From NCBI RefSeq assembly GCF_000153105.1, contig NZ_CH672376.1, forward strand, positions 3,425,148 to 3,489,147: 64,000 nt of DNA, in the 5' to 3' direction. This document shows, piece by piece, positions 1 to 25,068 of the stretch (position 1 is its first letter; each line of letters opens with the position of its first letter). The translations under genes and the position numbers were made by a program. This stretch comes from Blastopirellula marina DSM 3645. Its GTDB lineage: Bacteria > Planctomycetota > Planctomycetia > Pirellulales > Pirellulaceae. The notes beneath the pieces are model-generated. The model was not told where the DNA came from, searched no databases, and saw only the letters and a program-made list of their open reading frames with translations.

Positions 1-1791
1 CACATCGTAGGGCAACGTATGCTTGGCCGCTTTGGCAAGCGCCTGGGCGGCTTCGCGAAGTTGTCTGGCAAGCTCTTCGGCCGCGGCCTTATCTTCTTTT
101 GGGATCAGTCCTTTCTTGTTGGCGTTCTTCTCTTGCAACTCGCGCGCTTTCTGTCGCAGCTTTTCCAGCATTCGTTGGGCCTGACGGTATTTCGACATCA
201 ACACGTTAAGCCCCTCGCGCTGTCGGAGCATCTGTTCAAACTCTTGTTGCGAGATAATTCGCACCGTGACGACCGGCGTTTCCGCACTCTGCGCCGGATC
301 AGGATGATTGTCTTCGACACGAGCAAACAGTTTGATTTCGTCGCCGGACTCGAGACCATACGCCGCGAGCGGCAGATAGATCGTTTCGACTTTATTGGTC
401 GGCGCCGGCGTCAAAACGGGGATATCCAACGGTAGTGGTCGCGATCCGTTCAAGCTGCGATAGAGCGAGAACCGTGACACGCCGTAGTCATCCTCAGCAG
501 CAAGCTCGATCGGCAGATGCGCCGCCGGAGTCGCCAGCGATTTTGGCTGCGGTTTCAGGATCCGTACGAACGGGCGTTGATCCGCGATCAGCGTGATCGT
601 ACCGGCGACCGATTCACGCGACTCTTGGCCGTCAATGTCACGGACTCGCAGTTCAAATCTGCCGGCGGTTTGAATCGTCCATATTCCGGCGACCATCTCT
701 GGGTGCTCGGCCGACGGTTTCAGTTCCATGGTTTGGATCTGATCCCCCGAGAACACCGCAAGCGTTCCGCCGGCCAGAGGACGTTGACTGGTCGCGGTGA
801 ACTGAACCTGCGTTCCTGGCAAACCGGCGACCCCGGCGCGGGGAAGTGCGCCCCGGTAGCGACCGATCCCGCCGGCATATTCGGGCGGAGTGACCACTAC
901 CTGCACGGATTCAATTTCTGGCGCCGTTAAAATGCGAATGCGGTGCTTTTCGCTGCGAGCACGAAACGCTCGCACATAATATTCAGCCGGATCCATCAGC
1001 CGCGTCAGCACGGCGCGATAACTGCCATCGTTGTCGCGGAACATCGGGACCCGCTCTTCTTGCTCGGCGCGAACCAACACCAGCTCGACATCTTCTAGCG
1101 GCGTCGTCGCCGATTCGACAAAGATATCAAGCGAATCTCCGTAGCGAACGTCAGCATCCCCCGGCGTGACCTTCAGCAGCAAGTAAAAGGCCGGGGGCGC
1201 ATCGTCCCACGGATGTGCGAACCGTCGCCACTGTCCGGCTGCAAATTGCGACGCGAACAGCGCAACCATGGCAACGAGCAGAGTCATTACGAGCACGATC
1301 CCCCACGGTCGCGCCGCCGGTTTCCAGGGAACCGCCTGACGTAGTGAAATATGTTTGGCCAACACACCTGCGTTAGCAATCGCCAACTGGGCGAGCCCGG
1401 CTGTCGCGCGAAAATTTCCGCGCGTTCGCCCCGCATCCGCTTGTTGCAAATCCCAACCCGAAATCACCATGCCGCGGGCCTGGGCGGTTTCGTCCACCAA
1501 GCGCGCGGCTTTCGCTGGCGTGAAAGAGCGGAATCGCTGATAGATTAACACAATGGTAAGCGTGAGACCGACTATCGCAGCGATTCCGGGAACCGCTGCT
1601 CGCCAGACCGAGGTCAACTCAAACGCCAGATCGAGCCATACCGATATCAGCAACACGCCCAAGGCAGCCAACAATCCCCACGCCGCTGCCGCCAGCGCCG
1701 CGACTTCGCGATAGCGACGCGTCACTTGCCGCAACTTGACGCGAAGCGCCTGGCCGCTTGATTCGGGAGGAATTGGAGGTCGAGGATTCAT
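1..1791 (-). CDS. Large coiled-coil membrane protein (DUF4175-like), partial, module A
   Basis: Reading the minus strand from the ATG at 1791 gives 597 uninterrupted codons to the left edge, so the C-terminus is missing. Two hydrophobic segments lie near residues 35-85 and a third near 170-195. An extracytoplasmic beta-rich region with Ig-like spacing follows. The last visible part, from about residue 545, becomes charged and helical (E/K/Q/A-rich), the start of a coiled coil. The layout matches the complete 1240-residue protein of module B: short N-terminal membrane anchor, beta domains, long coiled coil. It starts 19 bp after the vWA gene upstream and is the fifth gene of module A. Function is unknown; in this type of cluster such proteins are taken as membrane-anchored partners of the vWA proteins (inference). 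The family label is by architecture only. Confidence 0.8.
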   Translation of the reverse strand, partial: MNPRPPIPPESSGQALRVKLRQVTRRYREVAALAAAAWGLLAALGVLLISVWLDLAFELTSVWRAAVPGIAAIVGLTLTIVLIYQRFRSFTPAKAARLVDETAQARGMVISGWDLQQADAGRTRGNFRATAGLAQLAIANAGVLAKHISLRQAVPWKPAARPWGIVLVMTLLVAMVALFASQFAAGQWRRFAHPWDDAPPAFYLLLKVTPGDADVRYGDSLDIFVESATTPLEDVELVLVRAEQEERVPMFRDNDGSYRAVLTRLMDPAEYYVRAFRARSEKHRIRILTAPEIESVQVVVTPPEYAGGIGRYRGALPRAGVAGLPGTQVQFTATSQRPLAGGTLAVFSGDQIQTMELKPSAEHPEMVAGIWTIQTAGRFELRVRDIDGQESRESVAGTITLIADQRPFVRILKPQPKSLATPAAHLPIELAAEDDYGVSRFSLYRSLNGSRPLPLDIPVLTPAPTNKVETIYLPLAAYGLESGDEIKLFARVEDNHPDPAQSAETPVVTVRIISQQEFEQMLRQREGLNVLMSKYRQAQRMLEKLRQKARELQEKNANKKGLIPKEDKAAAEELARQLREAAQALAKAAKHTLPYDV

Positions 1792-1810
1792 AGGTCAGCC
1801 GTACTTCGTG

Positions 1811-4072
1811 TTAGATGAGCCCTGACATGCGGCGAACGGCCCACGTACACCCCCACAGTCCAAACGACAACACTAGCACCCACCAGCGATCCCACGCAGA
1901 GGTACGAACGATTCGTTCTGGCCGATTGCGATCACGGTGCTCGACGAACGCTTGATGAAGCATCTCTGGCAATTGATCGACTGCATCCCCTTCCAACGCT
2001 TTGGCGCCGCTCCGTAGGGCCAAGTCTTGCATCGCCAACGGACGCGCGACCACATCTAGTCGCTCTTTCAAATTGCTGGTGACATCAAAACTGGTCTCCG
2101 CAGCCATTTCTGTTTCGGCGCCGGTCAATGCTCTCGCGGTATAGTGTCCCGGCGGCAGTCGGCCGAAACTAACCTGAAAAACGCCGCTCTCTTCGTCTCC
2201 AATCGGGACGATGGTCTGCGGTTTAGCGAGCGAATCGCTGATCAGCTGTACGTTGGGCGTCGATTTCCAGACGTCGGGTCGAAGCAGCAATGTGGCCGTC
2301 GCCGACTGGCTGGAACTGAGAGTGACAGCGTCGGTCCGGAGGGCGATCTGTTGATTCGGCAACAGGCCAGCATGCGAAACCAACCACCGCACCAAGCTGC
2401 GCCACAGTTGCGCATAGACCGCGTCTTGTTGCTGATGCTCTGGCGGTAGAAACGCCCAGCGCCACATGCCGGAGCCCTCAAGCACGACGACTCGCCCTCG
2501 TCCCGTTGGCCGGAAGGTGATCAGCGGAACCGCTTCCGCTTCGCCCGAGCTGGTGGCCAATACGGTGGTCAGCGGCTTCACATCCTCTGGCTTCGCTGAC
2601 ACGGCCAACGATGGCAACAACGCTAAATTCTGGCCCGTCTCCGGCAGCCATTGGGCCGATTCGCCCATGTCGGTCAGCGCCAGACGGAAGTGCGATTCTC
2701 GATCCGGCGACCACTCCACCGGCATCAGCGCCTCCAACTGTTGATTCAACTGCGACGCCGGCGCTCCGCGAAAACAGACGAGCGTGCCTTCGCTGGTGGT
2801 CAGCCAACTTTTTAGTTGTCGCAACGATTCGTCGGTCAGATAAGCTTCGGTGCTGCGGCCGAGCAGGATAATTTGAAATTGCGATAGGAACTCGGGGTCG
2901 GAAAGCACCTGGGACGCACCCTTGTGAATCTTCCACTGGTCACTGGAAACATTTGTTGGATCTGCTGACTCGGCGTCGGCTGTCATTGCAGAGGTACGTT
3001 GCACTTGACGCTGCAGAAAGCGGCCTGGCGCCATTTGTACGACGCTGGTCAATGCGACCGATGGATCGGCAGAGAGCGTGCGGATGAGAAACTTCGAATC
3101 CCAATACGGCTTTCCTTCCAACAGCAAAATCGACACCGGTTGATCGATCACTCGCAGTTGCAGCGTAGACGAGTTGTTTAAGTCGGTGACTTCGTTATCC
3201 AGCGGTTTGGCGGAAACGGCGTAGTTGTAGAGCCCGCTCTGCTTTTGCGAGACGTAGAACCGCTCTTCGATCGGCGTGTTATCGGTGAGTGAGACAACGC
3301 GGGACTCGACCGTTTCGCCGTTGCGCTGCAGCAAAAGCTCTGTCGTCTGAGGATTGCCGTAGCTGTGCGACAGGCGCACCGTGATCGGGACCTCTTGGTC
3401 GGCGAACGCCAACTCTTGCGACTGCCGTAATGAAATCTGCAGGTCGCGCACTCCGGCTTGCGTGCCGATCGTACGAACAAACAGCGGCGTGCTGAGCGCA
3501 TTGGCTCGCTCGCCAATCTTCCGCAGCGCAGCCGCCGAAGCGCCCGACGTATCAATCCCGTCGCTCAACACGAGCACCGCCTGACCGGGAGGACGATCTT
3601 CTCCCAACACTTGGTTCAAACTGCCGGCCAGATCGGTTACGCCGCCAACAGGGGTGAGCTGCGCGAGCGATTGCAGGTCCGTTGGCGAACTCGTCTGGTC
3701 AAACGCGCGAAGTCGAATTTCGTAATCCTCGCCTAGCTGGTCAACCACGCTTTGAGCGATCGCTTGTCCAACCGCCAAACGCGATTGACCAGTCGCGTTT
3801 CCATCGGCAGTCCCCATACTTGCCGAACGATCGATCAACACCGTCAGCAACGGTTTGCCCGGCGGGGGAGGACTGCGCCGTACCCAAATCGGATTTAGCA
3901 GAATCACCAGCGGGATCAGCATGCAAACGCCCATCCATCCCATCACCCAGGCCAGCCGACGCCGCGGAAGCTTGCTAGCGGTGCGCCGCGCGTAGACCAC
4001 CAGAATCGCCGCGGCGGCTATCGCCAGCGGCAACCAAAGTGCGAGCGGAATGTGAGGATCAAAACGGATCAA
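1811..4072 (-). CDS. vWA-domain membrane protein with C-terminal helix, module A
   Basis: 753 residues. Two N-terminal transmembrane segments (about 9-28 and 40-60) are followed by a von Willebrand A domain with a MIDAS-type DRSAS motif at 81-85, a TDLAG segment, and a LVLSDG strand carrying the third metal-site aspartate. A middle region resembles the glutamine-amidotransferase-like fold often fused in these proteins, then comes a beta-rich part and a last membrane helix near residues 730-748. The vWA domain would bind a divalent metal and a protein ligand; the protein is likely anchored with domains on the outer face. It follows the BatA/vWA gene by 27 bp and is the paralogue of the 792-residue protein of module B (DRSQS at 91-95). 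The role with MoxR is inferred from gene order. Confidence 0.85.
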   Translation of the reverse strand: MIRFDPHIPLALWLPLAIAAAAILVVYARRTASKLPRRRLAWVMGWMGVCMLIPLVILLNPIWVRRSPPPPGKPLLTVLIDRSASMGTADGNATGQSRLAVGQAIAQSVVDQLGEDYEIRLRAFDQTSSPTDLQSLAQLTPVGGVTDLAGSLNQVLGEDRPPGQAVLVLSDGIDTSGASAAALRKIGERANALSTPLFVRTIGTQAGVRDLQISLRQSQELAFADQEVPITVRLSHSYGNPQTTELLLQRNGETVESRVVSLTDNTPIEERFYVSQKQSGLYNYAVSAKPLDNEVTDLNNSSTLQLRVIDQPVSILLLEGKPYWDSKFLIRTLSADPSVALTSVVQMAPGRFLQRQVQRTSAMTADAESADPTNVSSDQWKIHKGASQVLSDPEFLSQFQIILLGRSTEAYLTDESLRQLKSWLTTSEGTLVCFRGAPASQLNQQLEALMPVEWSPDRESHFRLALTDMGESAQWLPETGQNLALLPSLAVSAKPEDVKPLTTVLATSSGEAEAVPLITFRPTGRGRVVVLEGSGMWRWAFLPPEHQQQDAVYAQLWRSLVRWLVSHAGLLPNQQIALRTDAVTLSSSQSATATLLLRPDVWKSTPNVQLISDSLAKPQTIVPIGDEESGVFQVSFGRLPPGHYTARALTGAETEMAAETSFDVTSNLKERLDVVARPLAMQDLALRSGAKALEGDAVDQLPEMLHQAFVEHRDRNRPERIVRTSAWDRWWVLVLSFGLWGCTWAVRRMSGLI

Positions 4073-4099
4073 GAGGACAAACCTTAAGCAGACGGAAAA

Positions 4100-6208
4100 T
4101 CAGGTTCGAAAAACCATTAACGTCGCTACCTCGGCCAGCAGACAAACGAGCACGCCAACAGCGAACCACTTCCACAAATCATGTTCCCAAGCCGCGCTCG
4201 CGCCTGGCGCCGAAAAATGCACTTCGTGTCCAGTGACCAGTCGGTCCAGCACTACATCGGCAGGCAATGTCGCCAGGTCGGCCTCTTCGGCAGGGATCGC
4301 GATCGCCGCCGCAAACAGCGTCTCGCGGTTGTCTTGGATTTGATAAACGCCTTGGACGTCGGGCGCGTCCCATTGCCAGAGCACGGAGTTGCCTTCGTCA
4401 AGCAGTCGTCCCAACGATTCGTCTGTCGCCGGCTGTACGTCGGAGTCGCGTACGATGCGGAGCGTATCGGCCGCGCGACCTGTATCAACTTGCGCCACCA
4501 GTTTTTCACCGCAAAGATACGTTTCTGATCCTGAGTCGGTTGCGAGCAGCTCTTGCACCAACTCGTCCAAAATGGGAACCAATGCACCGGTCTTCCAGAT
4601 GTTCGAGCTAGTCAAATCGGCGTTCACGATCGCTAGCGTTCCGCCGGAGACCGTCGACGCGACCACAATCGCCGGCGTATCGTCGCTATACATCGCTCGG
4701 ATCGAATCATCCGCCGCCGGATTGACGACCGAGCCCCCTTGAATGCTCAGTCCTCCACCAAATCGAAGCGGTTCGATAAGCGCCGGCAAACTATCGCCAA
4801 AGCTCGCGAGCGGCGGACGCGGAGATTCAAACGTCACCAGTCGTAGATCATGACGATCGGCCCCTGGGGCCGGCGGAGCAAAGCGAACCGCTAGCTCCAA
4901 CTGACTTGCTTCGACCAGCCGCGCTAGATTGACGGCGTCGATTGAGTCACTCGCGATATACAATAGCGAGCGTCCCCGCGTCAGTTGTCGAGCGATCACC
5001 TCCAAATGTTCCGGCGACAGTTGGCCGCAATCATTGATCACTATCAGGTCCGCATCGGTCAGCGACTGATTGTCGAGCAGGCGCGGCGGAATACGATGCA
5101 GTCGACTGGAAGCTGAGTCCCAATCGTCTTCCGGCGCCAAAGCAACGGCCAGAATATGACTCGATGACGTCCCCTCCCCTGTCTGTTGCGTAATCAGCAC
5201 ATATTGCGGCTCGCCGCGCAGCCGCGCCACGACGGGTCGCCAATCGTCGCCGGGTATCGTATCTTCCGAATCGACCAGCCGCACCTGTCCAGCAATCCAG
5301 CCGGTCATTCGAATCGGAATCTCCTGTTTCAACAGCGCTTCGTCCTGTGGATCGCAGACGCCGGAGAGACGATACGCGGCGTCGCCGATTTCGGCCTCGA
5401 CGATCAAGTTGCGACTGGTCGGACTGTAATTGCCGACGCGCACGGTCAACAGCACTCGATCTTGTCGCGCTCCTATTGGTTGACAAACGGCGCTCAAAAT
5501 CGCCAAGTTGTCTGGCGTCTCTTCCGCCGCCGTCGACTCCAACTGAATTTTCGTCGCCGGGGCAATTGCGTCAAAATTGGCTGCGCCCCAGCCGCTGCGT
5601 TGAAAATCGCTAATCACCACCAGTTCACGCCGACGCTGATCGTTTTCATCCAGTGGAGCAAGCTGACGAGCCGCTAGTTCAAGCGCCGCGTCCACCGCCA
5701 TCCGCTCTGGAAGGGCTGCGGCGCGGGATAGCTCTTCGCGAAGCGCCTCGAAGTTGGTAGAGACATTTTCGAAGACGGCGTGCGGCTGAGCGCCGGCGAT
5801 GATTAGATTGGTGCGCAGTCCGCTCCGATATTGCAGATAACGTTCCGCGATCGTCCGGGCACGCTCAACGCCAGGCGTATTGCCAGCGGTTGCGGCCATG
5901 CTTTGACTCACATCCAGCACCACAACGCGAACGGCGTCTCCGCCGTCATCGATAATCAGCGGCGGCTCGCCCCACTGCGGCCCGGCGAAGGCGGCGGTTA
6001 GTAACAAGATCGCGACACAACGCAGCGCAAGGATGATCCAATCACGCAGACGATGAGCGGCGCTGCGACTTTGCACCGCTTCACGGACAAATCGCAACGT
6101 CGAAAGCCGCATGACGACCGGTCGCGGTCGCGTAAGCCAATGAATAAGCACCGGCGCGGCGACGGCCAATAAGCCTAAACCGAAGATCCATGGCGCCGCG
6201 AAGGTCAT
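4100..6208 (-). CDS. BatA-domain/vWA membrane protein, module A
   Basis: I choose the ATG at 6208, giving 702 residues. A longer reading to 6328 would overlap the DUF58 gene by 79 bp and adds an unrelated 40-residue leader. From 6208 the protein starts directly with the aerotolerance BatA signature: a hydrophobic helix, then HWLTRPRP, then the helix ending in FAGPQW. The vWA MIDAS motif DVSQS is at 99-103, exactly the position of DHSAS in the 702-residue paralogue of module B, which supports this start. The middle is a beta-rich periplasmic-type region and the C-terminus a single membrane helix. BatA-family proteins work with MoxR ATPases in envelope stress and metal- or cofactor-loading systems; the substrate here is unknown. 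Confidence 0.87.
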   Translation of the reverse strand: MTFAAPWIFGLGLLAVAAPVLIHWLTRPRPVVMRLSTLRFVREAVQSRSAAHRLRDWIILALRCVAILLLTAAFAGPQWGEPPLIIDDGGDAVRVVVLDVSQSMAATAGNTPGVERARTIAERYLQYRSGLRTNLIIAGAQPHAVFENVSTNFEALREELSRAAALPERMAVDAALELAARQLAPLDENDQRRRELVVISDFQRSGWGAANFDAIAPATKIQLESTAAEETPDNLAILSAVCQPIGARQDRVLLTVRVGNYSPTSRNLIVEAEIGDAAYRLSGVCDPQDEALLKQEIPIRMTGWIAGQVRLVDSEDTIPGDDWRPVVARLRGEPQYVLITQQTGEGTSSSHILAVALAPEDDWDSASSRLHRIPPRLLDNQSLTDADLIVINDCGQLSPEHLEVIARQLTRGRSLLYIASDSIDAVNLARLVEASQLELAVRFAPPAPGADRHDLRLVTFESPRPPLASFGDSLPALIEPLRFGGGLSIQGGSVVNPAADDSIRAMYSDDTPAIVVASTVSGGTLAIVNADLTSSNIWKTGALVPILDELVQELLATDSGSETYLCGEKLVAQVDTGRAADTLRIVRDSDVQPATDESLGRLLDEGNSVLWQWDAPDVQGVYQIQDNRETLFAAAIAIPAEEADLATLPADVVLDRLVTGHEVHFSAPGASAAWEHDLWKWFAVGVLVCLLAEVATLMVFRT

Positions 6209-6249
6209 ACGTGTCTGTTCCGATCGAAGTTGCGATGTCGCGAGTAGGG

Positions 6250-7158
6250 TTATCCAGAGCGTTCCATCAAAAATCCGCCGAGCGATTCCAAATAGGGAAT
6301 CGAGGTCGAGATGCGGCGATAGTCGCAACCAGCGGCCAACGTCATCTGCCGGACCATCGCCTGATGGGCCGAAAATCGCCGTTGGTAATCGTCCCGAAAT
6401 TCATCCGGCGTACAACTCAACGATCCCCCTTTTTCCATCTCTTCAAACCGAAACGAGCTGCCTTGCGGCAACGTCTCTTCCTCGGGATGGATCAGGTGCA
6501 GCGTCAGAACTTCGAGACCACGATGGCGAAATAGTCGCAGCGCCGCGAAGGTCTCGTCCAAATCCTCCATCAAAAAGTCGGAGACGAACAGCAGCACGCC
6601 GCGTTGAGTCGTGCGCTCGAACAGTTCTCGTAAGCCTGGAGCCGATTGTGTGGTCGCTACGGTTTTGATCTGTTCGATCTGCTCCATGATCCGCATCACG
6701 TGCGCCGATGTGCCGCCTGGCGACAGATGATCTTCCAGACGCGACTTGAGCACCGCGAGTCCGACTTGATCCTGGCCGAGACTAATAATGTAGGAGAGCG
6801 CCGTTGTCAGAAATTGAGCGTATTCGAGCTTCGAACCTGTGCGCAACTTACTGCCCGAGAAAGCCATGCTTTCGCTCGCGTCGATGGCCAACATGCAGAC
6901 CAGGTTGGTTTCTTCCTGGTGGAGCCGGACAAAGCTTTTACCGGTACGCGCGAGCAGTTTCCAATCGAGTCGCCGGAGGTCTTCTCCACCGCTGTACTCA
7001 CGGAAGTCGACAAACTCGCCGGCGCCACCTTGTTGGCGCGATTTGTGTCGGCCGCTATACGAACCTTCGACGCGATGCGCCGTCGTGAATCGCATGTGCG
7101 CCAGCGCCGAAAGCGCGCGGCGATCGAAAAATCGCGATCCTTGTGCAAGCGATGTCAT
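6250..7158 (-). CDS. DUF58 domain protein, module A
   Basis: 302 residues, cytosolic, no membrane segment seen. It carries the DUF58 core: the FVDFREYSGGEDLRRLDWK region at about 49-67, then a vWA-like strand with DASES at 93-97. Its stop lies 41 bp before the BatA gene and its start overlaps the MoxR stop by 4 bp (ATGA), so MoxR and DUF58 are translationally coupled. DUF58 proteins are the usual second gene of MoxR operons and are thought to be the vWA-like cytosolic partner of the ATPase. A paralogue with the same context is at 19519-20502. Specific function not known. Confidence 0.9.
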   Translation of the reverse strand: MTSLAQGSRFFDRRALSALAHMRFTTAHRVEGSYSGRHKSRQQGGAGEFVDFREYSGGEDLRRLDWKLLARTGKSFVRLHQEETNLVCMLAIDASESMAFSGSKLRTGSKLEYAQFLTTALSYIISLGQDQVGLAVLKSRLEDHLSPGGTSAHVMRIMEQIEQIKTVATTQSAPGLRELFERTTQRGVLLFVSDFLMEDLDETFAALRLFRHRGLEVLTLHLIHPEEETLPQGSSFRFEEMEKGGSLSCTPDEFRDDYQRRFSAHQAMVRQMTLAAGCDYRRISTSIPYLESLGGFLMERSG

Positions 7159-8162
7159 CCGACGTCTTTCAACAGTCCCTCAATGATCTGCAGCGCAGTC
7201 ACCGAGTCGCCGATCGCGCGATGGTTGAGAATGATGCGATGCCGCAAAATCGGGCCTGCCACGCGCCGAACATCCTCTTCGGTCGGCGCCGTTCTTCCGT
7301 CGAGCAGCGCACACGCTTTGGCGGCTAGCACCAGATTTTGCGAGCCGCGGGGGCCGGCGCCCCACGAGACGTAATCGCGGACCATCGCCTGAGCTCGATC
7401 ATCTTCGGGCCGACTGCCACCGCACAACCGCACCGCATAGCTGGCGACATTCTTGGGGACCGGTACGGCCAGCACTAGATCGCGCAGTTCCAGAAATTCG
7501 TCTCGGTTGAGCGCCGCGGCCGGCATGACCATCGGCCCCGAGGTGGTCTTCAAGACGATCTCTTCTTCCTGCTCCGGTGTCGGATAGCCGAACCGGATCT
7601 CCATCATAAAACGGTCAAGCTGCGCCTCGGGCAGCGGATAGGTCCCTTCCTGCTCGATCGGGTTTTGCGTCGCGACCACCAAAAACGGCGACTCCAACGG
7701 ATAGGTTTGCCCACCTACGGAGACTTGTTGCTCGGCCATCGCTTCCAGCAGCGCCGATTGCGTCTTGGGCGCCGCACGATTGATTTCGTCCGCTAGCACC
7801 AAGTTGGAAAAAACCGGACCAGGCCGAAAGACCATTGTTGGACCTTGGTTCTCTTCTCCTCGGCCCAGCAGTTCATAGCCGGTCACGTCCGATGGCATTA
7901 AATCTGGAGTGAACTGAATCCGTGAAAACTTCCAGCCAAACGCCGACGCTAGCGCCTTGACCATCAAGGTCTTGGCCAGTCCCGGTACGCCGACCAGCAG
8001 CGCATGCGATCCAGTCAACGCACAGACCAACAGTTGATCGATCGAATCATCTTGACCAACCACCACCTGATGCAGACTCTCACGAATCGCCTGAACGCGC
8101 TGCGTAAAATCACCTAGCTTTTCGTCTGCTTCCGCTGCGGCGGAGACCGTAGCTTCACTCAT
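7155..8162 (-). CDS. MoxR-family AAA+ ATPase, module A
   Basis: 335 residues, the usual MoxR length. Walker A is GVPGLAKT at 58-65 and Walker B LADEIN at 123-128; the QNPIEQEGTYPLPEAQLDR sensor-1 region and the C-terminal lid are intact, so the enzyme should be active. MoxR ATPases act as chaperones that remodel or load metal/cofactor into partner proteins through vWA proteins. It is the first gene of module A; the start is supported by a strong GGAGAG ribosome site just upstream of the ATG (rightward, at about 8166-8171 on the plus strand). A 562-bp upstream region shared with the divergent MscS gene should hold the promoter. The paralogue is at 20502-21515. Confidence 0.95.
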   Translation of the reverse strand: MSEATVSAAAEADEKLGDFTQRVQAIRESLHQVVVGQDDSIDQLLVCALTGSHALLVGVPGLAKTLMVKALASAFGWKFSRIQFTPDLMPSDVTGYELLGRGEENQGPTMVFRPGPVFSNLVLADEINRAAPKTQSALLEAMAEQQVSVGGQTYPLESPFLVVATQNPIEQEGTYPLPEAQLDRFMMEIRFGYPTPEQEEEIVLKTTSGPMVMPAAALNRDEFLELRDLVLAVPVPKNVASYAVRLCGGSRPEDDRAQAMVRDYVSWGAGPRGSQNLVLAAKACALLDGRTAPTEEDVRRVAGPILRHRIILNHRAIGDSVTALQIIEGLLKDVG

Positions 8163-8724
8163 TGTCTCTCCTTGATTCCACGGCCGAAGATTAGATAGGA
8201 GGCCGAATGGATCGATCGAAGTGTCAGTTTAGCGCTGATGAAAAGGATCAGAAGCGTGACAAGATCGGAACCTAATATTTCACGCGAAACGCTTGCGCAC
8301 TTCACGAGTCTCCCGCAACCCGTCTGGTGGCATATTACCGCGCCGGAGGGGGCCCCGCAAACTTTTGGTTCGACAACTTCGCATTTTGAAGAACTCAAAT
8401 AAAAAACGGACAATTCGCCTTCATTTGCCACTTTGGAAAGAACTTGGTTCCGGTCACCGAACGGCTTGCCAATTCTTTCCAAGTCAGGCCGAGAGACTCC
8501 TGTAGAGAGATGAAGTATCCAAGCGCCGGCTTGGTGGACGTTTTAGAATAGATCGATGTGGAGAGCGGTCCGCTGGTTGCGTTTTCACGCTAAGATGGTG
8601 ACTTAGAAGATGTCAGATCGACGCACGCTATCCGGCGAATCGAGTAGACCCAGACGCCGCGTAGTCCGCTCGCTTTACGCCTGCCGACGGTAACGATTGA
8701 CTGATTTAGAAAGAGAGTATCCCT
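8163..8724. other. Intergenic region, divergent promoters expected
   Basis: 562 bp between the divergent MoxR and BON-MscS genes. Short open frames here have no coding character and no family I recognise. I did not find a convincing -35/-10 pair for either direction. The region must hold promoters for both transcripts, and it is AT-richer than the flanks around 8390-8415. Confidence 0.4.
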
Positions 8725-10206: not shown

Positions 10207-10331
10207 AACATCCGACGACAGAGCCGATAAAGTTTGTCACTGGCCCCAGGAGATCGCTCCGCGGTTCACCACCGAGCGGGAGCGTCACTATCGTGTCGCC
10301 CCGTTTTCCAGCGATGCCACGATCCAACGCT

Positions 10332-11318: not shown

Positions 11319-11319
11319 C

Positions 11320-16600: not shown

Positions 16601-17417
16601 CATAATCGGGCGTGACTTGATCGCCGAAGGCGACCCGATAACGGAGCGGCTCGGCGACGGCGGCGATTCGTCCGCCGAACAACGGATCATCCAGCGATTG
16701 CGACATCGCGACGGAATGCTCTTGGCCATCCTGCGTCGTATATCGAAGCGTCGCTTCCGGCGGCAAGCGATCGGCGAACCGCGCAAGCACCAGCAGACTA
16801 GCTCCCTTCTCGACTTCGGTGTCGCCAGGTTCAATGCTTGCTTCGTATTCGGTTCCGCTTAGCACCACGTCGCCAAATTGGAGGGTTGCGTCAGGATTTT
16901 TCGCAATCAGGTCGACGTTGAGCGATTGAAGTGCGGCGACAGCGACGATTAACAGCACGCAGCCGCTCACCGCCCAACAGCGCGCCATCCCCATCTGCGT
17001 GCGGGAGATCAAGTTTCGCCAGTCGTGACGCAGCGCATGGTGCAGCGACTTATCCACAACGGCGCGTTGTAAATAGCCCAAACCTTGCGTCGAAACATGC
17101 GGGTCCTGCTCGACCGCGGTCAATAAGGCCGAGTTGAGTTGCGGGAACCGCGTTTCAATCTGCTGCGCCAAGCGGCGCACGTTCCTCCCCGAGGCGATGC
17201 CGACGATCATCGCGACAAGCGAACCGACCACCGCCGTGATCATGGCGAGCGGTATTATCCCTTCTACCACCAGGCCGTAGTATTTGCTGATCCCATACAC
17301 GACGCCTAATAGCGCCGCGATCGAAAGCAGGACGAACCCCACGCCGCACCAGATGCGAAAGAGACGTAACCGCCGGGCGACGCCTTGCAATTGGCCATTG
17401 AGCTGACGATCCATCAT
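13695..17417 (-). CDS. Giant coiled-coil membrane protein (DUF4175-like) with QQPG repeat, module B
   Basis: 1240 residues. N-terminal helices at about 20-45 and 50-75 and a third at about 145-165 anchor it; beta-rich domains fill about 180-500. From about 520 to 990 it is a Q/E/R-rich coiled coil with many LQQ and EEA heptads. Next comes a pure QQPG tandem array (about 1026-1101), then a structured, charged C-terminus. Both ends overlap neighbours by 4 bp (BatA/vWA upstream, vWA downstream). It corresponds to the truncated protein at the left window edge. The long coil plus proline-rich spacer suggests a structural or scaffolding part spanning the envelope (inference). Enzymatic motifs were not seen. 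Confidence 0.85.
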   Translation of the reverse strand: MMDRQLNGQLQGVARRLRLFRIWCGVGFVLLSIAALLGVVYGISKYYGLVVEGIIPLAMITAVVGSLVAMIVGIASGRNVRRLAQQIETRFPQLNSALLTAVEQDPHVSTQGLGYLQRAVVDKSLHHALRHDWRNLISRTQMGMARCWAVSGCVLLIVAVAALQSLNVDLIAKNPDATLQFGDVVLSGTEYEASIEPGDTEVEKGASLLVLARFADRLPPEATLRYTTQDGQEHSVAMSQSLDDPLFGGRIAAVAEPLRYRVAFGDQVTPDYAVTVFEYPQLLQADAKLVFPSYTGQAEKLVQDTRRVSAVEGTELTILCHVNKPLVSAQFVEETKAGEEILALEIDPADPLTYAVTFVVDRSRQLALRLTDDAGRTDKHPADFRVVMIANRPPDIKLAQPARDMEVSPIEEVDLAASAWDDFGLQRVGVSYSIPGKLEREVLLGEEFPTKDRIQAEHLLAFEELDAEPDQLLSWYFWAEDIGPSGESRRTSSDLFFAEVRPFEEIFRQGDQPPEGSQQQQQQQGGRNAEQAQELAELQKQIINATWKVIRRESRDQPTSQFSGDLQLLVESQQEALALVAELEQNLQDSQSLEHVGQVKKSMLQAISTLEAAAGGPKISELQPALGHEQAAYQSLLRLRAREHEVVESSQSQQSSQSQQSQSSRSQQQLQQLQLKEDENRYAQQEQAQTEQQQEAREDRQILNRLKELSQRQNDLNERIKEQQGALEAAETAEERAEAERQLKRLREEQEEILRDTEELQQRMEEPENQERMAEQRQQLEEARENVRQSVDALQEQMVTQAANAGTRAQSELNELQDEFQKRSSGEFQQQVRDLQQQAEDLMQEEEKLAEQLEQLRSGGEEEENSLRESGQREETQSQLGEQQQRLEQLLNQMRETIEEAEDSQPLLAEKLYESIRDTRKTDPQKALDAAESSLRRGFLEDSIRQEAQARESIGQLAEGVQQAAEQILGDETETLRRALRELEQLNEDLEGEITRAAGREPNQPGQNREEQPPQETQPSGEPGEQQPGQQPGQQPGQQPGQQPGQQPGQQPGQQPGQQPGQQPGQQPGQQPGQQPGQQPGQQPGQQPGQQPGQQPGQQPGQGQSGSQDASPGGGLDRFLQQGGFQPNSPFSGDDFIDWSDRLRDVEEIVDDPQLRAEAARIRDEAREIRREIKGQSEAPQWDIIQEKISKPLTRLQNRVAEELLKRTADDARVPIDKDPVPAQYENAVRRYYERLGSSE
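14115..14342 (-). repeat. 19-copy 12-bp tandem repeat encoding QQPG
   Basis: Nineteen in-frame 12-bp units, each coding Gln-Gln-Pro-Gly. Read on the plus strand, units 1-8 are TCCTGGTTGTTG; unit 9 is GCCCGGTTGTTG; unit 10 is GCCTGGTTGTTG; units 11-19 are again GCCCGGTTGTTG. The protein repeat is perfect while the DNA falls into two homogeneous blocks, which points to recent unit-by-unit expansion by slippage. Copy number probably varies between strains, always in frame. Open frames on the other strand across the array are shadows. Confidence 0.97.
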
Positions 17418-19522
17418 GCGAGGTCTCCCATGACCTGAACAGGTTGACGACTTCTACGAGCTGCGAGCCATGTTTCGACCCCCAACAAGATCAGCACGGC
17501 GACGATGAGCCACTTCCAGATCTTCTGACGGTTTTCAAGTTCGAGATCGCGGAGCTGTCGCATCCGATCGAGCTGCGTGGTTTGCGACGGCGCAGCGCCT
17601 AGCGCGATATCAAACTGCTCCAGCCGCTGGAGATCGAGCGGATCGGTTTCGCTTTCGCTATCTGCGACATTGACCGCAAACTTTGTTTCCTGACCTTCGT
17701 CCAGCAGCGAGTAGATGCCGGGAACAAGGGTCGCCGCGAAAACGGTATCTTGCTCAGCCAATTCTATCTTGTCGCCAGTCGGCGTTTGCACGACTCGTTT
17801 CCCTAGGGCTGTCGGCAACGGTACAGGTTGATTGACGACGTACGATTGCGACGCGAGACGCCCTTTGGCGGCCAGTTCCAACCAACGTGACAGCAACGGT
17901 AAAAACTTGGTGGAAAGCGCCAATTGACTATCCGCGCGACTCCAACCGGCGCTCATCACGTACAACGTTCCCTCGCCGCGCTGGATCGACCACAATGCAG
18001 GCGTATCATCACTGAAACGTGCGATGACAGCGGCGCCTTTAACCTCGTCCAGGTTAACTTGTCGATGCCGCCAGAACCGAATCTTCGTGAAATCGTTGTA
18101 GCGGGCGCCCGCGAACGGAACGAACAGCGGATGCTGGAAATCAACATATCCCAGCAGAGCGAATGAATCTTTCGCCGCGCTATTCTGGTCGCTGGGCGGC
18201 AAAAGTTGGACCCCGCCTAACCAGGCGCCCATTTCACGGACCATGTCGTCGCTGCTAAGTACGACCAGCGCGTCTCCTCCTTGCTCTAAAAACTTGTTGA
18301 CGCCATCTTGCTGCGTCTGGCTCAGCGAGTGAGCGATCACTGCGAAGTAGGGGGCCGCGTCAATCTCCCAGTTCGGCATTGCTTCGGTCTCGACTGCCGC
18401 GATTTCTATTTTGCGAGCAGGGGTTTCGTCGAAGGCTCGGCTGAGATAGAACCGCATCTGTTCAGGATCGTCTGCTGCGTCTGAGCCAAAATAGGCCAGG
18501 CTGATTTGTTCCTGAACTGCGGGGACCTGATAAAAGGTATTGTCGAAGTCGAGCCCCGGTCCGTCGCCGCGAAGCAGCAAGCGATCGGGCGACGAGCTGC
18601 CGATCTCCAACGGAACGTCCAAGACCAGGCTTTCGCCTGGCGGCACATAAAACGAAACAGGCCGCGATCGATCTTCGGCGCCGTCTTTCCAGACGACCTC
18701 GAACTGTTCGATCTGGGAACCGGCGACGTTTCGGACGCGAACGCGCGGAACTCGCTCGCCGTCGGTCTCTTCCTCTTGCGACGCGATAAGACGGACACGA
18801 GCGTTCGAGATGTCAGCGGGAATGACGTTGTGAACCTCCAAACGGACCGACTCGGGCCATTGGCTTGTCTGTAACGCATCCAATTGCGAGCCGGCCTGCA
18901 CGTCGCCTACCAGAACGATCTGCAGCGCGGCGTGCGTTTGGTGCAGGTCGTCAGCGGATTCCAATCGCTCGGCCACGCCGAGCAAAGCGGATCCTAAATC
19001 GCTCGCTCCCCAGGTAGGCGATAGTTCGGCCAGTTTGTTGCGAACCAGTTGACGACGTTGGTTTTGATCAAACCCGGCCAAGCTCTCCGGCGCAACGAGC
19101 ATTTCCAGCTTTTCGTCAAAGGCGAACAACGAGACTTCGTCGGTCGGTTCGAGTCCGTCGATTACTTCCTTCGCCGCGGTGATCGCATCGTCCCAGACCG
19201 CGCCTCGACGCATGCTGGCGCTGTGATCGACCAGGATCGCCACATGCCGCTGCGGCGCGTCGCTGAGTGATAATTCGGCCTGGGTCCGGAAATAGGGGCG
19301 CGTGAAGGCAAACGCTAACAGCAAGATCGCCAGCGCTCGCAACAGCAGCAGCAACCATTCATCCAACCGACTGCGGCGCGTTAACCGCGGCGGCGAAGGC
19401 TGAAGAAACATCAGCGAACTAAATTCGTACCGAGCTTTGGGCGTCCGCCGGATCAAGTGAAACAACAGCGGCGCCGCGATGGTCAACGCACCCAGCAGAA
19501 ATGCTCCGTACAGCAAACTCAT
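17414..19522 (-). CDS. BatA-domain/vWA membrane protein, module B
   Basis: 702 residues, the same length as its module A paralogue. N-terminal BatA domain: membrane helix 5-23, FHLIRRTPKAR, second helix about 55-73. The vWA MIDAS DHSAS is at 99-103, with later threonine and aspartate positions present (GASDLGSAL; VLVGDVQAG). A beta-rich region follows and a C-terminal helix lies at about 674-690. It overlaps the DUF58 gene upstream and the coiled-coil gene downstream by 4 bp each. Expected to be a membrane partner through which the MoxR ATPase acts on an envelope target; the target is not known. Confidence 0.88.
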   Translation of the reverse strand: MSLLYGAFLLGALTIAAPLLFHLIRRTPKARYEFSSLMFLQPSPPRLTRRSRLDEWLLLLLRALAILLLAFAFTRPYFRTQAELSLSDAPQRHVAILVDHSASMRRGAVWDDAITAAKEVIDGLEPTDEVSLFAFDEKLEMLVAPESLAGFDQNQRRQLVRNKLAELSPTWGASDLGSALLGVAERLESADDLHQTHAALQIVLVGDVQAGSQLDALQTSQWPESVRLEVHNVIPADISNARVRLIASQEEETDGERVPRVRVRNVAGSQIEQFEVVWKDGAEDRSRPVSFYVPPGESLVLDVPLEIGSSSPDRLLLRGDGPGLDFDNTFYQVPAVQEQISLAYFGSDAADDPEQMRFYLSRAFDETPARKIEIAAVETEAMPNWEIDAAPYFAVIAHSLSQTQQDGVNKFLEQGGDALVVLSSDDMVREMGAWLGGVQLLPPSDQNSAAKDSFALLGYVDFQHPLFVPFAGARYNDFTKIRFWRHRQVNLDEVKGAAVIARFSDDTPALWSIQRGEGTLYVMSAGWSRADSQLALSTKFLPLLSRWLELAAKGRLASQSYVVNQPVPLPTALGKRVVQTPTGDKIELAEQDTVFAATLVPGIYSLLDEGQETKFAVNVADSESETDPLDLQRLEQFDIALGAAPSQTTQLDRMRQLRDLELENRQKIWKWLIVAVLILLGVETWLAARRSRQPVQVMGDLA

Positions 19523-20501
19523 GACGAGCCTCCTGCCGGCCTTCTTTGCCGAACGGCGCCGCGACCTCGTTTCATGCGATCGGCAAGCAGATCAAAGAGG
19601 ATCAACTCGAGCGGTCGATCGATCGAGATTTGATGCAATTCAATCCCCAGCTGATTGCAAATCGTCTGCACCGCGCCGGCATGTTCTTGAAACGCCGACA
19701 GATAGTTTTCTCGTGCGGCGTCGGGATCAATGTAAAGGTCGCGTCCCGATTCGATGTCGTGAAACATCGCCGGCTTATCGAAGCGGAAATCGATTTCTCG
19801 TGGATCCAACACGCGAAGGAGAATGACTTCGTGCCCTCGCGTCCGTAGGTAGCTAAGATTCTTTTGGAGCGATCCAATCGGCGTAAGCAAATCCGAGATC
19901 AGGACAACCACTCCCCGCTTGGCGACGGTCGCGGCGACCTGCTCTAGCGGCTTCTCAATATTGGTCGCCGTGCCGGCGGGTGCGCGTTCCAAGCTCATCA
20001 TCAGTTGGTGAATTTGCCCAGGACGAAACCGAGGAGGTATCAGGTCAAGGATCGTCTCGTCGAATGTCAGCAAACCGACCGCGTCACGCTGCAGCGAGAG
20101 GAAGTAGGCGATCGTCGCCGCCGCCGTCTTCGCATAGTCGGCCTTGTTGTAGCCAACGGTGCCGTAGGTCATCGAACGACTCAGATCCACCAGCAAATGG
20201 CAGCGCAGATTCGTCTCGTCCTCAAAGCATTTGATGAAATAACGGTCGGACCGCGCAAAGAGCTTCCAATCGAGAAAGCGAGGATCATCCCCCGGTGAGT
20301 ATTGGCGATATTCGGTAAACTCGACCGAAAACCCGTGATAGGGCGAACGATGCAGTCCTGATAAAAAACCTTCGACAATCGCCCGCGCGCGGAGTTCGAG
20401 GTTCTTCATTCGCATTAACGAACCGGGATCGATGAACGAAGATTTTTTTCGTCCCGCGCCGGTGTTGGATCCGTTTTCCATGGGAATGGATGCGCTGCTC
20501 A

Positions 20502-20502
<1 letters not shown>
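19519..20502 (-). CDS. DUF58 domain protein, module B
   Basis: 327 residues from the ATG at 20502, which shares one base with the MoxR stop (TGATG); a TTG one codon earlier is also possible. The DUF58 core is clear: GFSVEFTEYRQYSPGDDPR at about 57-75, LDWKLFARSDRY, then the vWA-like DLSRS at 106-110. The N-terminal 25 residues are polar and low-complexity, unlike the module A paralogue. No membrane segment. Coupled to MoxR upstream and BatA/vWA downstream by overlaps. Confidence 0.9.
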
Positions 20503-21515
<1,013 letters not shown>

Positions 21516-21577
21516 GATGGATGGACTTTCTCGCTGATGTCAAAGGAGGAGGATCGCGCGACTGCGGCAAAGCCGGT

Positions 21578-22414
21578 TTAGTGCGTCATCGCGTAGGTAA
21601 TGATGTTGATTCCTAGGGGATAGGCGAAACGCTCCGAGTATTCTTTGAAGTAGGTCGGGTCGACTCCTTCTTCTTCCCAGCCGTCTCCCAAGTCGGTGTT
21701 ATGGCAAATGATCGCCATCATCCGCCCTTTGTCGTCAAAGATGCCTTTATAGTGCGCCTCTTGGGCATCAGGGCGCTCCGTCCGTCGTCCCCCCATCCAA
21801 GCGCCGATGCTGATGATCATCGGTTTTTCCTGTAGGTCGTAGACGAGATGAAAAATGTCATGCTCCAGCGGCAGTTCTTCCGGCTCACGATCCGGAAAAA
21901 CTCGCTTGATGTTCTGATAGAAGTTGTCCCACTCTTGCTCTCCCCAAAAGTCATCCACCATCAGGAAGCCGCCGTTCAGTAGGTAGCGACGCAGCCCGCG
22001 GACTTCGTCGTCTGATAGCAGCATGTCGCCCGGTTCGACCAGATAGAGAAACGGATAGTCCGACAGTTTTTCGTCGGTCAGCTCGACGATTACGCTCTGA
22101 GGGTGGACTTCCATCGAAGTCAGCTCGCGCAAGCGATGAGGGAGATTCAAATCACTTTCGGGAAAGTCGACCGCCCACTTGTCGCGCCAACCGTAAGAGC
22201 TGTATTTGACCCGCGCAAAGCGGAACGCGTCATGCTGGAAATGCTCGTCAATTTCCCAATCATTTTTCGCGCCGAACTCCGGCGGACTGCCGCGAAATCC
22301 CCGGCGGCCCCCCAATCGCGCGCCTGGCCCAAACTGAGCAAAGACGACGCCTGCGATGATTGCGACGACGGCCATCGCCAGAGACCACCGTATCCATGTT
22401 TTTTTCAAGATCAT
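21578..22414 (-). CDS. DUF4159 domain protein, exported, module B
   Basis: 278 residues. A signal-anchor lies at about 9-27 and a short G/R-rich stretch follows. The DUF4159 core runs from about residue 60 to the end: FRFARVKYSSYGW, the PFLYLVEPGDM segment, the LRRYLLNGGFLMVDDFWG segment and an HNTDLGDGWEEE segment near the end. DUF4159 proteins have a glutamine-amidotransferase-like (flavodoxin-type) fold and are regular partners of MoxR/BatA clusters; no enzymatic function is established. It overlaps the TPR-peptidase gene by 4 bp (ATGA). Confidence 0.9.
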   Translation of the reverse strand: MILKKTWIRWSLAMAVVAIIAGVVFAQFGPGARLGGRRGFRGSPPEFGAKNDWEIDEHFQHDAFRFARVKYSSYGWRDKWAVDFPESDLNLPHRLRELTSMEVHPQSVIVELTDEKLSDYPFLYLVEPGDMLLSDDEVRGLRRYLLNGGFLMVDDFWGEQEWDNFYQNIKRVFPDREPEELPLEHDIFHLVYDLQEKPMIISIGAWMGGRRTERPDAQEAHYKGIFDDKGRMMAIICHNTDLGDGWEEEGVDPTYFKEYSERFAYPLGINIITYAMTH

Positions 22415-25068
22415 TCGACCTCTTCCGTTGATGGCGCAGGGTCTGTGGCAGGCGTTTCATCGCTGGTCTCCGTCAGCGAAAGCAGCAGTTGGTGCGCCTC
22501 GCGATAGCGGGGAGCTTCGGCCAGCGCCAATAAGACTTGTTTGCGAGCCTCTTCGAGCCGTCCCGCTTGTTCCAGCAATCGAGCGGCCTGAAAATGAATG
22601 TCGGCGGGGTCATAGGGATCCATCCGTGAGAGCGCCTGCAAACCGTCGATCGCCGCAGCTCGGTCGCCGCAGCGCTGGCCGGCCAGCGCTAGTAACCGAT
22701 GCGGTTCTGGGATCAGCGGATTAACCGCTAGGATTCGCTTCGCATCGACGACGACGGCCCCCCAGTCCTTTTGCTCTTCATGCAGTTGGGCCAAGCGTCG
22801 ATAGACCGCGACACTATCGGCGCTGAGCTCCGCCAATTGTTCTAACACTGCGATCTCCTGTTGGGTATCGCTCATTTCGCGAGAAATCTTCGCTTTCAAC
22901 GGCAGGCCGCTCCCCTCGCCGGCATAGTTTGGCGCTAATTCCAGCAGTCGCTCGATTGGCTCCTGCGCCTCTTGCCATTTTTCCTCGTTGATCAGGGCCA
23001 GCGCATATTGTTGCAAACCCTTGAAGTTGTCGGGGTGCTCCGCAAGCCAATCTTTCCAGGTCGCCGCATCCGCCCTGGCCGGCAGTTCTTCCTCCGCAAA
23101 ATCGGCTCCAGCGGCGAACGCATTGGCCCGCTCTTGAATATATTGCTCGAAGCCTGCGTCGATCGCGTCTAAGGGCGCCGCATGCCGCGCGATCGCGTCG
23201 TTGATTTGCAGCCCTTTTCCGAGGTCGTCAAGGATCGCACGCAGCGCGTCGATCCCAAATTGATCGACGATAAACTCCACGACGAGCGACGATTCGTAGT
23301 AGGCGAACATCAAATGAGCGGCGCTGGCAGGACGGAGAAACGCACCGCTCAGTTCGCTGACCGGCGTCAGGTCGTCGCTGAGGATCATTTTCCGATAGGT
23401 AGGCGACATCGACTGTCCCCACGAGCGATCTCGCAAACCTTCTTCATAGACCGAAATACCTTCGCTCAACCAGCGCGGCATCTTATTACGGGTCTTGGTC
23501 AAGGTGACGACATGACAAAACTCGTGCCACAAGACGGCCTCCCAATTAGAAGGGGTATTCCCTTGTGATGCTGGTGAGTTCATTGTGATCACGCTGCCAA
23601 AACAGACTCCCAAAAATCCGGCGCCGCCCGGCAAGCCAAACGTCCGGATCGCAAAGTCCTGCTGGCGCGGAAAAATCTCGATCGCGACCGTTTCCGGCAG
23701 TTCGACCTCATACTTTTCGCAGAGCACCTGTTTCGCTTCGCGCAACAGTTCCAGTACCCGCGGCCCATAGATCTCGGCTTCTTGGGCGTCCATTCGCACG
23801 ACGAAACCGTCGCTGATTAACGTGCGGTATTTCGCCATATGCTCATGCAGGGTCGAGAGATTATGCGCGACCACGTTGTAGTTGTCGGCGTCAAAAACCT
23901 CTTCGGCCAGTTTCCAGCCTGCTTCTTCTTCTCCCAGGCGCAGCAGATCATTGGACAGCTCCATTTTGGCCGGTAGATAGTCGGAGTCGAACGTCAGCGC
24001 TTGGCGCTGCGCGGCGGCGGCTTCGGCAAAGCGATATTTCTGCGCGAGGAACTTGCCGATCAGATAGTCGACGTCGGGGTTGTCGGTCCAATGTTGGAGG
24101 GCCTTGGCCCGCGCCTGAGTCTCTTGTTCAGAATCGCTACTTAAATGGGCCAACACGGCGCGAATCGCCCAGGCTTTCGGCTGGACAGGATTGATCTTGA
24201 GCACCTGCTCTAGCAATTTTTCAGTCTCTTCGTAGCGCTCGGCTTGAAGATGTTCTTCCGCCGCCAAAAGTAGGCTTGGTACATGATGCGGATTGATTGC
24301 GAGCGCCTCGTTCAGATACTGCTCCGCTTTTTTCGAATCGCTTGGCTCAAACGACCGCGCTAGGCCGTAGAGGATCCGTGGGTTGTCAGGATCAATTTTT
24401 AGGGCGTTTTGAAAATCTTCGGCGGCCAAGGCAAAGTCATTCTTGGCCAGCGCCAGTTCCGCCGCGGTGATGTAGGCGCCTGCATAACGGGGAGCACGTT
24501 GCTGAACCTGCTTGAAGAGCGTCGTCCGAATCTGTTTAGGATCGGCCCCAATTTCGAGGAAGAATTGCCCAATGACGACCATGTCTTCAGGAGAGCGATA
24601 GCGGCCGCTCGACCGTTCGACCTCGGCGGCGATCTCGGCGAGCACTTCTTTCGCTTTGGCCGATTCTCCTTGAAAACGGCGAACGTCACGCTCGATCCAG
24701 CGAAGACGAATACTGTACGTATTGACCTTTTTCGCCTCTTCCAGCGTCTGCACCGCATCGGCATAGCGGCCTAGGATTAGTTCGCTTTCCAGTTTCAGTA
24801 GTCGCCACTCTTCTGAGAACGTCCCCTCGGCGATTTCCGCACCCGCTGCGTCCACGCACTTCGCGTATTGACCGGTGCGAAACAATTCCTTGGCCTCGGC
24901 CAACGTTTCCGCCGCGCAACTCTGCGACAGGAAAGAGAGTCCTGCTACCGCCAACCCCCAACCGAACATTCGGGACAGCCGAAAAAATCTCGACCCTCGA
25001 CTGCTGCTCAACTTTTCCAAAACCGGCTCCTTCGCGAACTTTTGGACGAACCGCGACGATGACGCCAT
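22411..25068 (-). CDS. TPR protein with MA-type HExxH metallopeptidase domain, module B
   Basis: I choose the ATG at 25068 (885 residues); a longer reading would start at TTG 25146 and adds a leader with no support. A hydrophobic segment ending at a cysteine (about 34-52) suggests export, possibly as a lipoprotein. Residues about 55-400 are TPR-like repeats. The peptidase site is HEFCH at 515-519 with a downstream SEGISVYEEG supplying the third ligand, the gluzincin pattern of the peptidase MA family. More TPR-like helices fill about 640-870. It heads module B and overlaps DUF4159 by 4 bp. The metal and catalytic residues are intact, so an active zinc peptidase is likely; the substrate is unknown. 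Start choice is moderate. Confidence 0.83.
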   Translation of the reverse strand: MASSSRFVQKFAKEPVLEKLSSSRGSRFFRLSRMFGWGLAVAGLSFLSQSCAAETLAEAKELFRTGQYAKCVDAAGAEIAEGTFSEEWRLLKLESELILGRYADAVQTLEEAKKVNTYSIRLRWIERDVRRFQGESAKAKEVLAEIAAEVERSSGRYRSPEDMVVIGQFFLEIGADPKQIRTTLFKQVQQRAPRYAGAYITAAELALAKNDFALAAEDFQNALKIDPDNPRILYGLARSFEPSDSKKAEQYLNEALAINPHHVPSLLLAAEEHLQAERYEETEKLLEQVLKINPVQPKAWAIRAVLAHLSSDSEQETQARAKALQHWTDNPDVDYLIGKFLAQKYRFAEAAAAQRQALTFDSDYLPAKMELSNDLLRLGEEEAGWKLAEEVFDADNYNVVAHNLSTLHEHMAKYRTLISDGFVVRMDAQEAEIYGPRVLELLREAKQVLCEKYEVELPETVAIEIFPRQQDFAIRTFGLPGGAGFLGVCFGSVITMNSPASQGNTPSNWEAVLWHEFCHVVTLTKTRNKMPRWLSEGISVYEEGLRDRSWGQSMSPTYRKMILSDDLTPVSELSGAFLRPASAAHLMFAYYESSLVVEFIVDQFGIDALRAILDDLGKGLQINDAIARHAAPLDAIDAGFEQYIQERANAFAAGADFAEEELPARADAATWKDWLAEHPDNFKGLQQYALALINEEKWQEAQEPIERLLELAPNYAGEGSGLPLKAKISREMSDTQQEIAVLEQLAELSADSVAVYRRLAQLHEEQKDWGAVVVDAKRILAVNPLIPEPHRLLALAGQRCGDRAAAIDGLQALSRMDPYDPADIHFQAARLLEQAGRLEEARKQVLLALAEAPRYREAHQLLLSLTETSDETPATDPAPSTEEVE

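Follow-up and report, generated by a model that had tools for sequence, protein, structure and literature searches.

Gene content of the two modules

The window analysed here is a 64,000-nucleotide stretch of the Blastopirellula marina DSM 3645 genome (an assembly of 6.66 Mb in three contigs), corresponding to positions 3425148-3489147 of contig C2. The genome has 12 MoxR genes, and the window includes two MoxR-vWA modules, termed A and B. Module B (window 25068-10332) consists of eight genes, all on the minus strand. The first (22411..25068) encodes a TPR protein with a gluzincin metallopeptidase domain (Peptidase_MA_2; Pfam E 3.6e-12) and a signal-like N-terminus; its open reading frame opens at 25146, and the ATG at 25068 is taken as the start. 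The next three genes encode a DUF4159 protein with a hydrophobic N-terminal anchor (21578..22414; Pfam E 7e-53), a MoxR AAA+ ATPase (20502..21515; AAA_3 E 4.2e-63), and a DUF58 (vWA) protein without a TM segment (19519..20505; Pfam E 8.6e-50; DxSxS at residue 107). The fifth product combines a BatA N-terminal double anchor, a vWA domain, and a C-terminal TM segment (17414..19522; BatA E 2.7e-14, TIGR02226 E 1.5e-21; DxSxS at 99). The sixth is a Q/E-rich coiled-coil membrane protein with three TM-like segments, which is DUF4175-like by a match below the cut-off (13695..17417; E 2e-5), and the seventh is a membrane protein with vWA, GATase1-like, and Ig-like domains (11320..13698; GATase1_like E 1.8e-7, Filamin E 9e-7; DxSxS at 91). 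The eighth gene (10332..11318) encodes a caspase-fold (C13-like) protein with a signal-like N-terminus, whose structural model finds caspases as its best Foldseek matches. An NCBIfam scan gave only the BatA anchor above cut-off; the remaining matches were TPR, AAA, and coiled-coil look-alikes below it.

Adjacent genes of module B overlap by four bases at five of the seven junctions, and one gap, between the DUF4159 and MoxR genes, measures 62 bases; the caspase-fold gene probably starts at an ATG one base past the preceding stop, within a longer open frame. As judged from the sequence, the junctions are operon-like. A gene for an XylR-like AraC-family regulator (25515-26678) lies divergent from module B, and a gene for a BON-domain MscS-type mechanosensitive channel (8725-10206), on the opposite strand, separates the two modules.

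Module A, also on the minus strand, encodes a MoxR AAA+ ATPase (7155..8162; AAA_3 E 8.3e-61), a DUF58 protein (6250..7158; Pfam E 6e-38), a BatA/vWA protein (4100..6208; BatA E 2e-16; DxSxS at 99), a vWA/GATase-like membrane protein (1811..4072), and a coiled-coil protein (1..1791) whose 3' part lies off the window. The module is cut by the left window edge and runs on with genes for a DUF4159 protein of 242 aa, a tetraheme cytochrome, a thioredoxin+HEAT protein with the thioredoxin motif CPWC, and a SIMPL protein. The cytochrome (L013:8041-9417) is of the c554 type, with four CxxCH motifs and, on our reading, a lipoprotein-like N-terminus; by eye, a GDTHG stretch near that N-terminus, ahead of the CxxCH motifs, resembles a metallophosphoesterase motif.

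The gene content and order given for the two modules in the preliminary description, made from the sequence alone, are borne out, as is the exchange of position between the vWA and coiled-coil genes. Two entries need amendment: DUF4159, correctly listed for module B, is not confined to it, as module A also has a DUF4159 gene, outside the window; and the second vWA protein of module B does have a vWA domain but also, by Pfam, a GATase1-like domain, with the vWA protein of module A as its homologue (22.5% identity over 817 columns, E 2.6e-28). Both modules keep an intact DxSxS motif in their DUF58, BatA, and vWA/GATase proteins.

Apart from A and B, MoxR and DUF58 genes stand with genes of the BatA or vWA/GATase type at no fewer than five loci of the genome (L015, L017, L018, L021, and L022). 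L015 also has, divergent from its MoxR-DUF58-BatA-vWA/GATase module, a gene whose product, about 810 residues long, has two DUF4159 domains (L015:8406-10838; genome C2:583-586 kb). About 0.7 kb past the right window edge lies a Bat operon (L014:3866-13334; genome C2:3489866-3499334) with MoxR, DUF58, DUF4381, BatA/vWA, vWA, TPR, and BatD+TPR genes; together with modules A and B it makes three MoxR-vWA systems inside about 80 kb.

Motifs, folds, and predicted topology of the module B proteins were compared across relatives. In the TPR peptidase, H541, E542, and H545 of an HExxH motif and a downstream glutamate, E562 (numbering of the 911-residue frame), are invariant in 13 of 13 sequences, and the protein is probably an active gluzincin. 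The caspase-fold protein has no Pfam family match by sequence; its model (mean pLDDT 73.5) has caspases as the best PDB matches (probability 1.00, E 8.6e-6, target TM about 0.5). The candidate catalytic histidine is kept in all 43 rows of the alignment and the cysteine in 30 (one cysteine-less genome being counted twice); the cysteine is replaced in the other 13 by alanine (5), threonine (5), serine (2), or asparagine (1). The earlier label of C13 peptidase is thus right as to fold and holds for the window protein, which has both residues, but it does not extend to the family as an enzyme, since the His-Cys dyad is not kept across it. The DUF4159 protein of module B (DUF4159_B) resembles PDB entry 4i66 (Hoch_4089), both as a model (Foldseek E 4.5e-12) and by sequence profile (E 3.8e-11); 4i66 is an uncharacterised protein of the same fold and suggests no function. 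In the GATase1-like domain, inspection by eye finds the nucleophile-elbow cysteine absent in 13 rows and the elbow GGGxxMLGG in 13 of 13; a lone cysteine near the elbow, in L058, is off position by eye. The DxSxS motif of the vWA/GATase protein is degraded in two distant relatives of module B, L064 and L068.

Topology was assessed with a simple hydropathy scan and charge. All 13 BatA proteins of module B relatives have two N-terminal hydrophobic segments, and 11 of them have a further segment at the C-terminus; the charged loop between the first two segments predicts that the vWA domain should face outwards, and the charge bias is weaker for the vWA/GATase protein of module B. An N-terminal hydrophobic segment exceeds the threshold in all 13 DUF4159 proteins; among the TPR peptidases it does so in 8 of 13, and among the caspase-fold proteins in 6 of 13. 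The N-terminal segments of the window's own TPR peptidase and caspase-fold protein fall below this threshold, and their export is read by eye; both proteins are likely exported.

Relationship between modules A and B

Modules A and B share paralogous MoxR-vWA cores, as the preliminary description had proposed; its further suggestion, a duplication that left the two side by side, is contradicted by the tree test that it had itself named, in which the two fall into separate clades. Between A and B, identity is 47% for MoxR, 30% for DUF58, 29% for DUF4159, and 20-23% for the coiled-coil and vWA/GATase proteins; the MoxR of module B is nearer to those of L015, L017, and L018 (53-55%). Both BatA proteins do have 702 residues with DxSxS from residue 99, but they are similar only in patches (24-34% identity) and the BatA_B relatives range from 694 to 772 aa, so that the shared length is probably coincidence. 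Trees of MoxR (72 rows) and DUF58 (59 rows) came from a quick IQ-TREE search with SH-aLRT support only, and several long branches were flagged; 30 of the 45 MoxR matches in G121, G205, and G024 gave loci and were entered. In both trees the module B sequence of the window groups with rows of several planctomycete families in a starred B clade; the module A sequence groups with G024 and G171 in another clade, likewise starred.

Genes of module A are absent from the 19-19.5 kb downstream of module B in G121, of the same genus, and G205, of the same family (upstream, 1-2 kb were covered), which indicates that adjacency of A and B is not general. The trees, the identities, and the 19 kb downstream of module B in G121, in which no A genes lie, rule out a local tandem duplication. 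The vWA/GATase gene precedes the coiled-coil gene in module A and its A-like relatives, where both were seen, and follows it in the relatives of module B; by this comparison the swapped gene order is old. From their sequences, A and B are best described as two gene sets of old origin, each inherited on its own, that are both built on one ATP-driven membrane core.

Module A in its cytochrome-bearing form occurs in three of the 246 genomes of the phylum: that of the window, G024, and G171 (cytochrome E <1e-80); the vWA/GATase gene of G171 reads as two frames. Weaker relatives of this cytochrome are frequent, occurring at E 1e-10 in 141 of the 246 genomes, and A-like core modules without a cytochrome are found at L071, L073, L076, L078, and L079. 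Overall and third-position G+C are similar in A and B, and composition is mute on a recent horizontal arrival of A.

Conservation and co-inheritance of module B

Orthologues of DUF4159_B at E <1e-80 are present in 16 of the 246 phylum genomes, its own included. At 12 of the 15 loci fetched, all eight genes are found in the same order and on the same strand; the other three belong to one genus (G024, G137, and G194). A wider search of GTDB-derived genome contigs returned at least 562 relatives of DUF4159_B, of which the best 80 were used; these are mostly from planctomycetes, with five from Verrucomicrobia, Opitutae or Opitutaceae, and two labelled just 'bacterium'. Among these best 80 of at least 562, MoxR follows DUF4159_B as the next gene at 70 of the 76 loci that could be tested, a distance rule places the TPR peptidase gene immediately upstream of DUF4159_B at 64 of 77, and the run from MoxR to vWA/GATase is complete at 40 of the 50 loci with at least 9 kb downstream. 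The six loci without MoxR behind DUF4159_B count against a single unit, as do 11 of the 13 upstream misses (of 77), in which a TPR-peptidase match is missing altogether, again within the best 80 of at least 562; the other two (L082 and L149) have a match that the distance rule rejected. The caspase-fold gene was found in 35 of 36 genomes drawn from the best 80 of at least 562, just past the vWA/GATase gene in 32 of the 35 as judged by coordinates, with the same contig confirmed for 27 of the 32. The clustering of DUF4159, TPR peptidase, and caspase-fold genes, which the preliminary description had proposed to check, is a feature of the conserved module B.

Co-occurrence was examined for five of the genes across one set of 128 class genomes. 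The TPR peptidase is present in 57, DUF4159_B in 57, MoxR_B in 56, vWA/GATase_B in 57, and the caspase-fold gene in 58; 55 genomes have all five, 70 have none, and three (G361, G376, and G377), all drafts of 490-980 contigs, have some. Fisher tests between pairs of three of these genes give p <1e-33, with the reservation that the genomes are related and their counts do not stand for independent events. Several family groups (f1, f87, f89, f94, and f95) include both positive and negative genomes. At the thresholds used, MoxR_B, vWA/GATase, and the caspase-fold gene each have one match per positive genome. Absence of the tested genes from 70 of the 128 genomes counts against the explanation favoured below, and so do the extra copies of DUF4159_B in 3 of 57 genomes.

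These counts depend on thresholds (E 1e-60, 1e-100, and 1e-162) chosen after the gap between orthologues and paralogues had been seen. Before counting, TPR-peptidase rows below 600 bits were dropped, including all those of 26 genomes with a sole match of 206-267 bits, as were one of two TPR-peptidase fragments in G353 and weaker extra DUF4159 copies in G376, G388, and G386. The class sample overlaps that of the named genomes; the caspase-fold genes of G247 and G319, for example, occupy the same place in both. The matches of 206-267 bits belong to a distant TPR-gluzincin family in 26 class genomes without the module B TPR peptidase (G284, G295, G310, and others).

In 42 of the 55 genomes with all five genes, these are clustered on a single strand within 20 kb, always in the same order. 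Among the other 13, some cases are probably contig breaks, but scattering is certain on the single-contig genomes G024 and G331, in which several genes are dispersed and all five kept, G339 (TPR peptidase only), and G366 (caspase-fold gene only). In G331 the coiled-coil, vWA/GATase, and caspase-fold genes stay together, with MoxR apart from them. By the look of it, G137, G194, and G323 are scattered too, with all five genes kept; G024, G137, and G194 are one genus and are counted once. BatA_B, tested in 14 genomes, is kept in seven of the seven with moved genes (534-755 bits) and is missing from the five module-negative genomes tested, in which the best match scores 84 bits. On this genomic evidence planctomycetes either have or lack the tested module B genes as a set, even when these are scattered on the chromosome. 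Scattering without loss distinguishes shared function from mere neighbourhood, and retention of the gene set after its neighbourhood is lost argues for shared function.

Candidate functions of module B

In agreement with the preliminary view that module B belongs to no named system, none was found in the literature searched (titles and abstract openings, with most subscription papers outside), which gave no description of module B and no mention of DUF4159. The main texts of essential-gene papers on Planctopirus limnophila (PMC10632474) and Verrucomicrobium (PMC12283558) did not contain the terms MoxR or von Willebrand.

Several known systems share parts with it. RavA-ViaA and CoxD-CoxE likewise consist of a MoxR ATPase and a vWA partner that act on a complex. 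To our knowledge neither includes a membrane-anchored vWA protein or a DUF4159/GATase-like set. In Rhizobium leguminosarum, the MRP-type MoxR protein RL3499 is important for membrane integrity and morphology according to one report (PMC3893208), and another (PMC5118466) lists both RL3499 and RL3500 as impaired in growth on complex medium. The likeness to module B is that of an MRP-type MoxR in a conserved operon, RL3499-RL3502; by analogy of family, not compared sequence, module B is possibly its planctomycete counterpart. The partners encoded in that operon are presumably DUF58, DUF4159, and GATase-like proteins, and we know of no TPR metallopeptidase or caspase-fold protein there, unlike in module B.

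The favoured reading of module B, given a little under an even chance, is one functional unit: a machine of the inner membrane, driven by an AAA+ ATPase, that serves assembly or quality control of the planctomycete envelope and is akin to Bat but distinct from it. An envelope role is preferred on account of the probably exported parts and the reports linking RL3499 to membrane integrity and cell shape. In such a machine, MoxR and DUF58 would work in the cytosol; the BatA, coiled-coil, and vWA/GATase-like proteins would cross the membrane, with MIDAS-vWA faces and catalytically dead GATase-like faces exposed on its outer side; and DUF4159 would serve on that side, along with the TPR metallopeptidase and the caspase-fold protein, as recognition or processing parts. 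ATP hydrolysis by MoxR would remodel the complex, so that envelope proteins are matured or cleared. Module A would be a distant relative with the same core and different clients (the tetraheme cytochrome and the thioredoxin/HEAT protein). A bolder version, to which we give clearly less than even credence, makes module B an obligate ATP-powered envelope machine of Planctomycetota that goes beyond Bat and the rhizobial operon, with an active periplasmic metallopeptidase as cutter and the caspase-fold protein, a peptide-binding pseudo-peptidase whose catalytic cysteine has been lost repeatedly, as reader in MoxR-driven remodelling, and with six tested parts so interdependent that chromosomes with a broken-up operon retain them all.

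The chief rival, which we regard as unlikely, is that the MoxR/vWA core matures a periplasmic metalloenzyme in the manner of CoxD/MoxR, its client being the zinc metallopeptidase in B and the tetraheme cytochrome c in A. Against such a role, zinc peptidases seldom depend on an insertase, and cytochrome c has a maturation route of its own; each module does hold one metalloprotein gene, of different kinds, and MoxR proteins are described as maturation chaperones, with CoxD acting in metal-cluster assembly (PMC3893208). Also against it, A-like cores without the cytochrome exist (L071, L073, L076, L078, and L079), and the 11 of 77 testable loci, from the best 80 of at least 562, have no TPR-peptidase match upstream of DUF4159. 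The presence of MoxR, DUF58, a BatA domain, and TPRs, common to Bat operons (PMC11834572) and to the module genes, could instead make module B a divergent Bat (aerotolerance) operon. This is distinctly improbable, and the coexistence of both systems largely refutes it: the BatD domain expected of a Bat operon was not found in the scanned A and B proteins, the same genome has a separate operon about 0.7 kb past the right window edge (L014) that includes BatD and TPR genes along with two vWA genes, and the MoxR of that operon lies outside the tree group that holds A and B.

Many envelope genes cluster, and physical clustering of independent envelope genes without shared function would account for DUF4159_B being without MoxR behind it at 6 of 76 testable loci among the best 80 of at least 562; this too is very unlikely, given that the tested genes are kept together in content even after chromosomal scattering. 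Least credible is a MoxR-vWA conflict or immunity system with a caspase-like effector, similar to the ternary systems of Kaur and colleagues. In those systems, MoxR-vWA pairs and caspase-like domains co-occur, planctomycetes included, and about 70% of the caspases in effector position are inactive (PMC7159879). Module B differs in its probably exported parts, its conserved gene order, and the lack of a third component: VMAP, iSTAND, an FtsH pair, or a beta-propeller is named in neither the Pfam nor the PADLOC output for the module proteins. The caspase-fold gene is separate and unfused to vWA, the gene order is fixed and extra copies are few, and PADLOC matches none of ten proteins (eight of B and two of A); with this result and a single gene order wherever the genes cluster, the conflict-type reading raised in the preliminary description is unsupported. 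The bpMoxR Pfam model scores above cut-off on the A and B MoxR proteins (43-44 bits) and also on that of the Bat operon (57), and is non-discriminating. As to the patchy, diversifying gene content of such systems, module B is fixed in content and order, though missing from 70 of 128 class genomes, and cytochrome-bearing module A is patchy, with 3 of 246 genomes.

Module B bears on a wider matter: MoxR-vWA systems are widespread and their targets mostly unknown, and here the parts list is fixed by evolution. The list includes a caspase-fold protein whose importance, in some lineages, seems not to depend on protease activity. The long-open question of what membrane MoxR-vWA operons do would now be testable in genetically tractable planctomycetes.

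Beyond the planctomycetes, a DUF4159 match is present in the alphaproteobacterium Caulobacter vibrioides. A tblastn search of plasmids with two DUF4159 proteins gave no rhizobial record, and only Gemmatirosa and Corynebacterium records; on the Corynebacterium plasmid (L238; NZ_CP015623.1) the DUF4159 gene, some 205 codons long, stands alone in an odd place, amid mobile-element and resistance genes.
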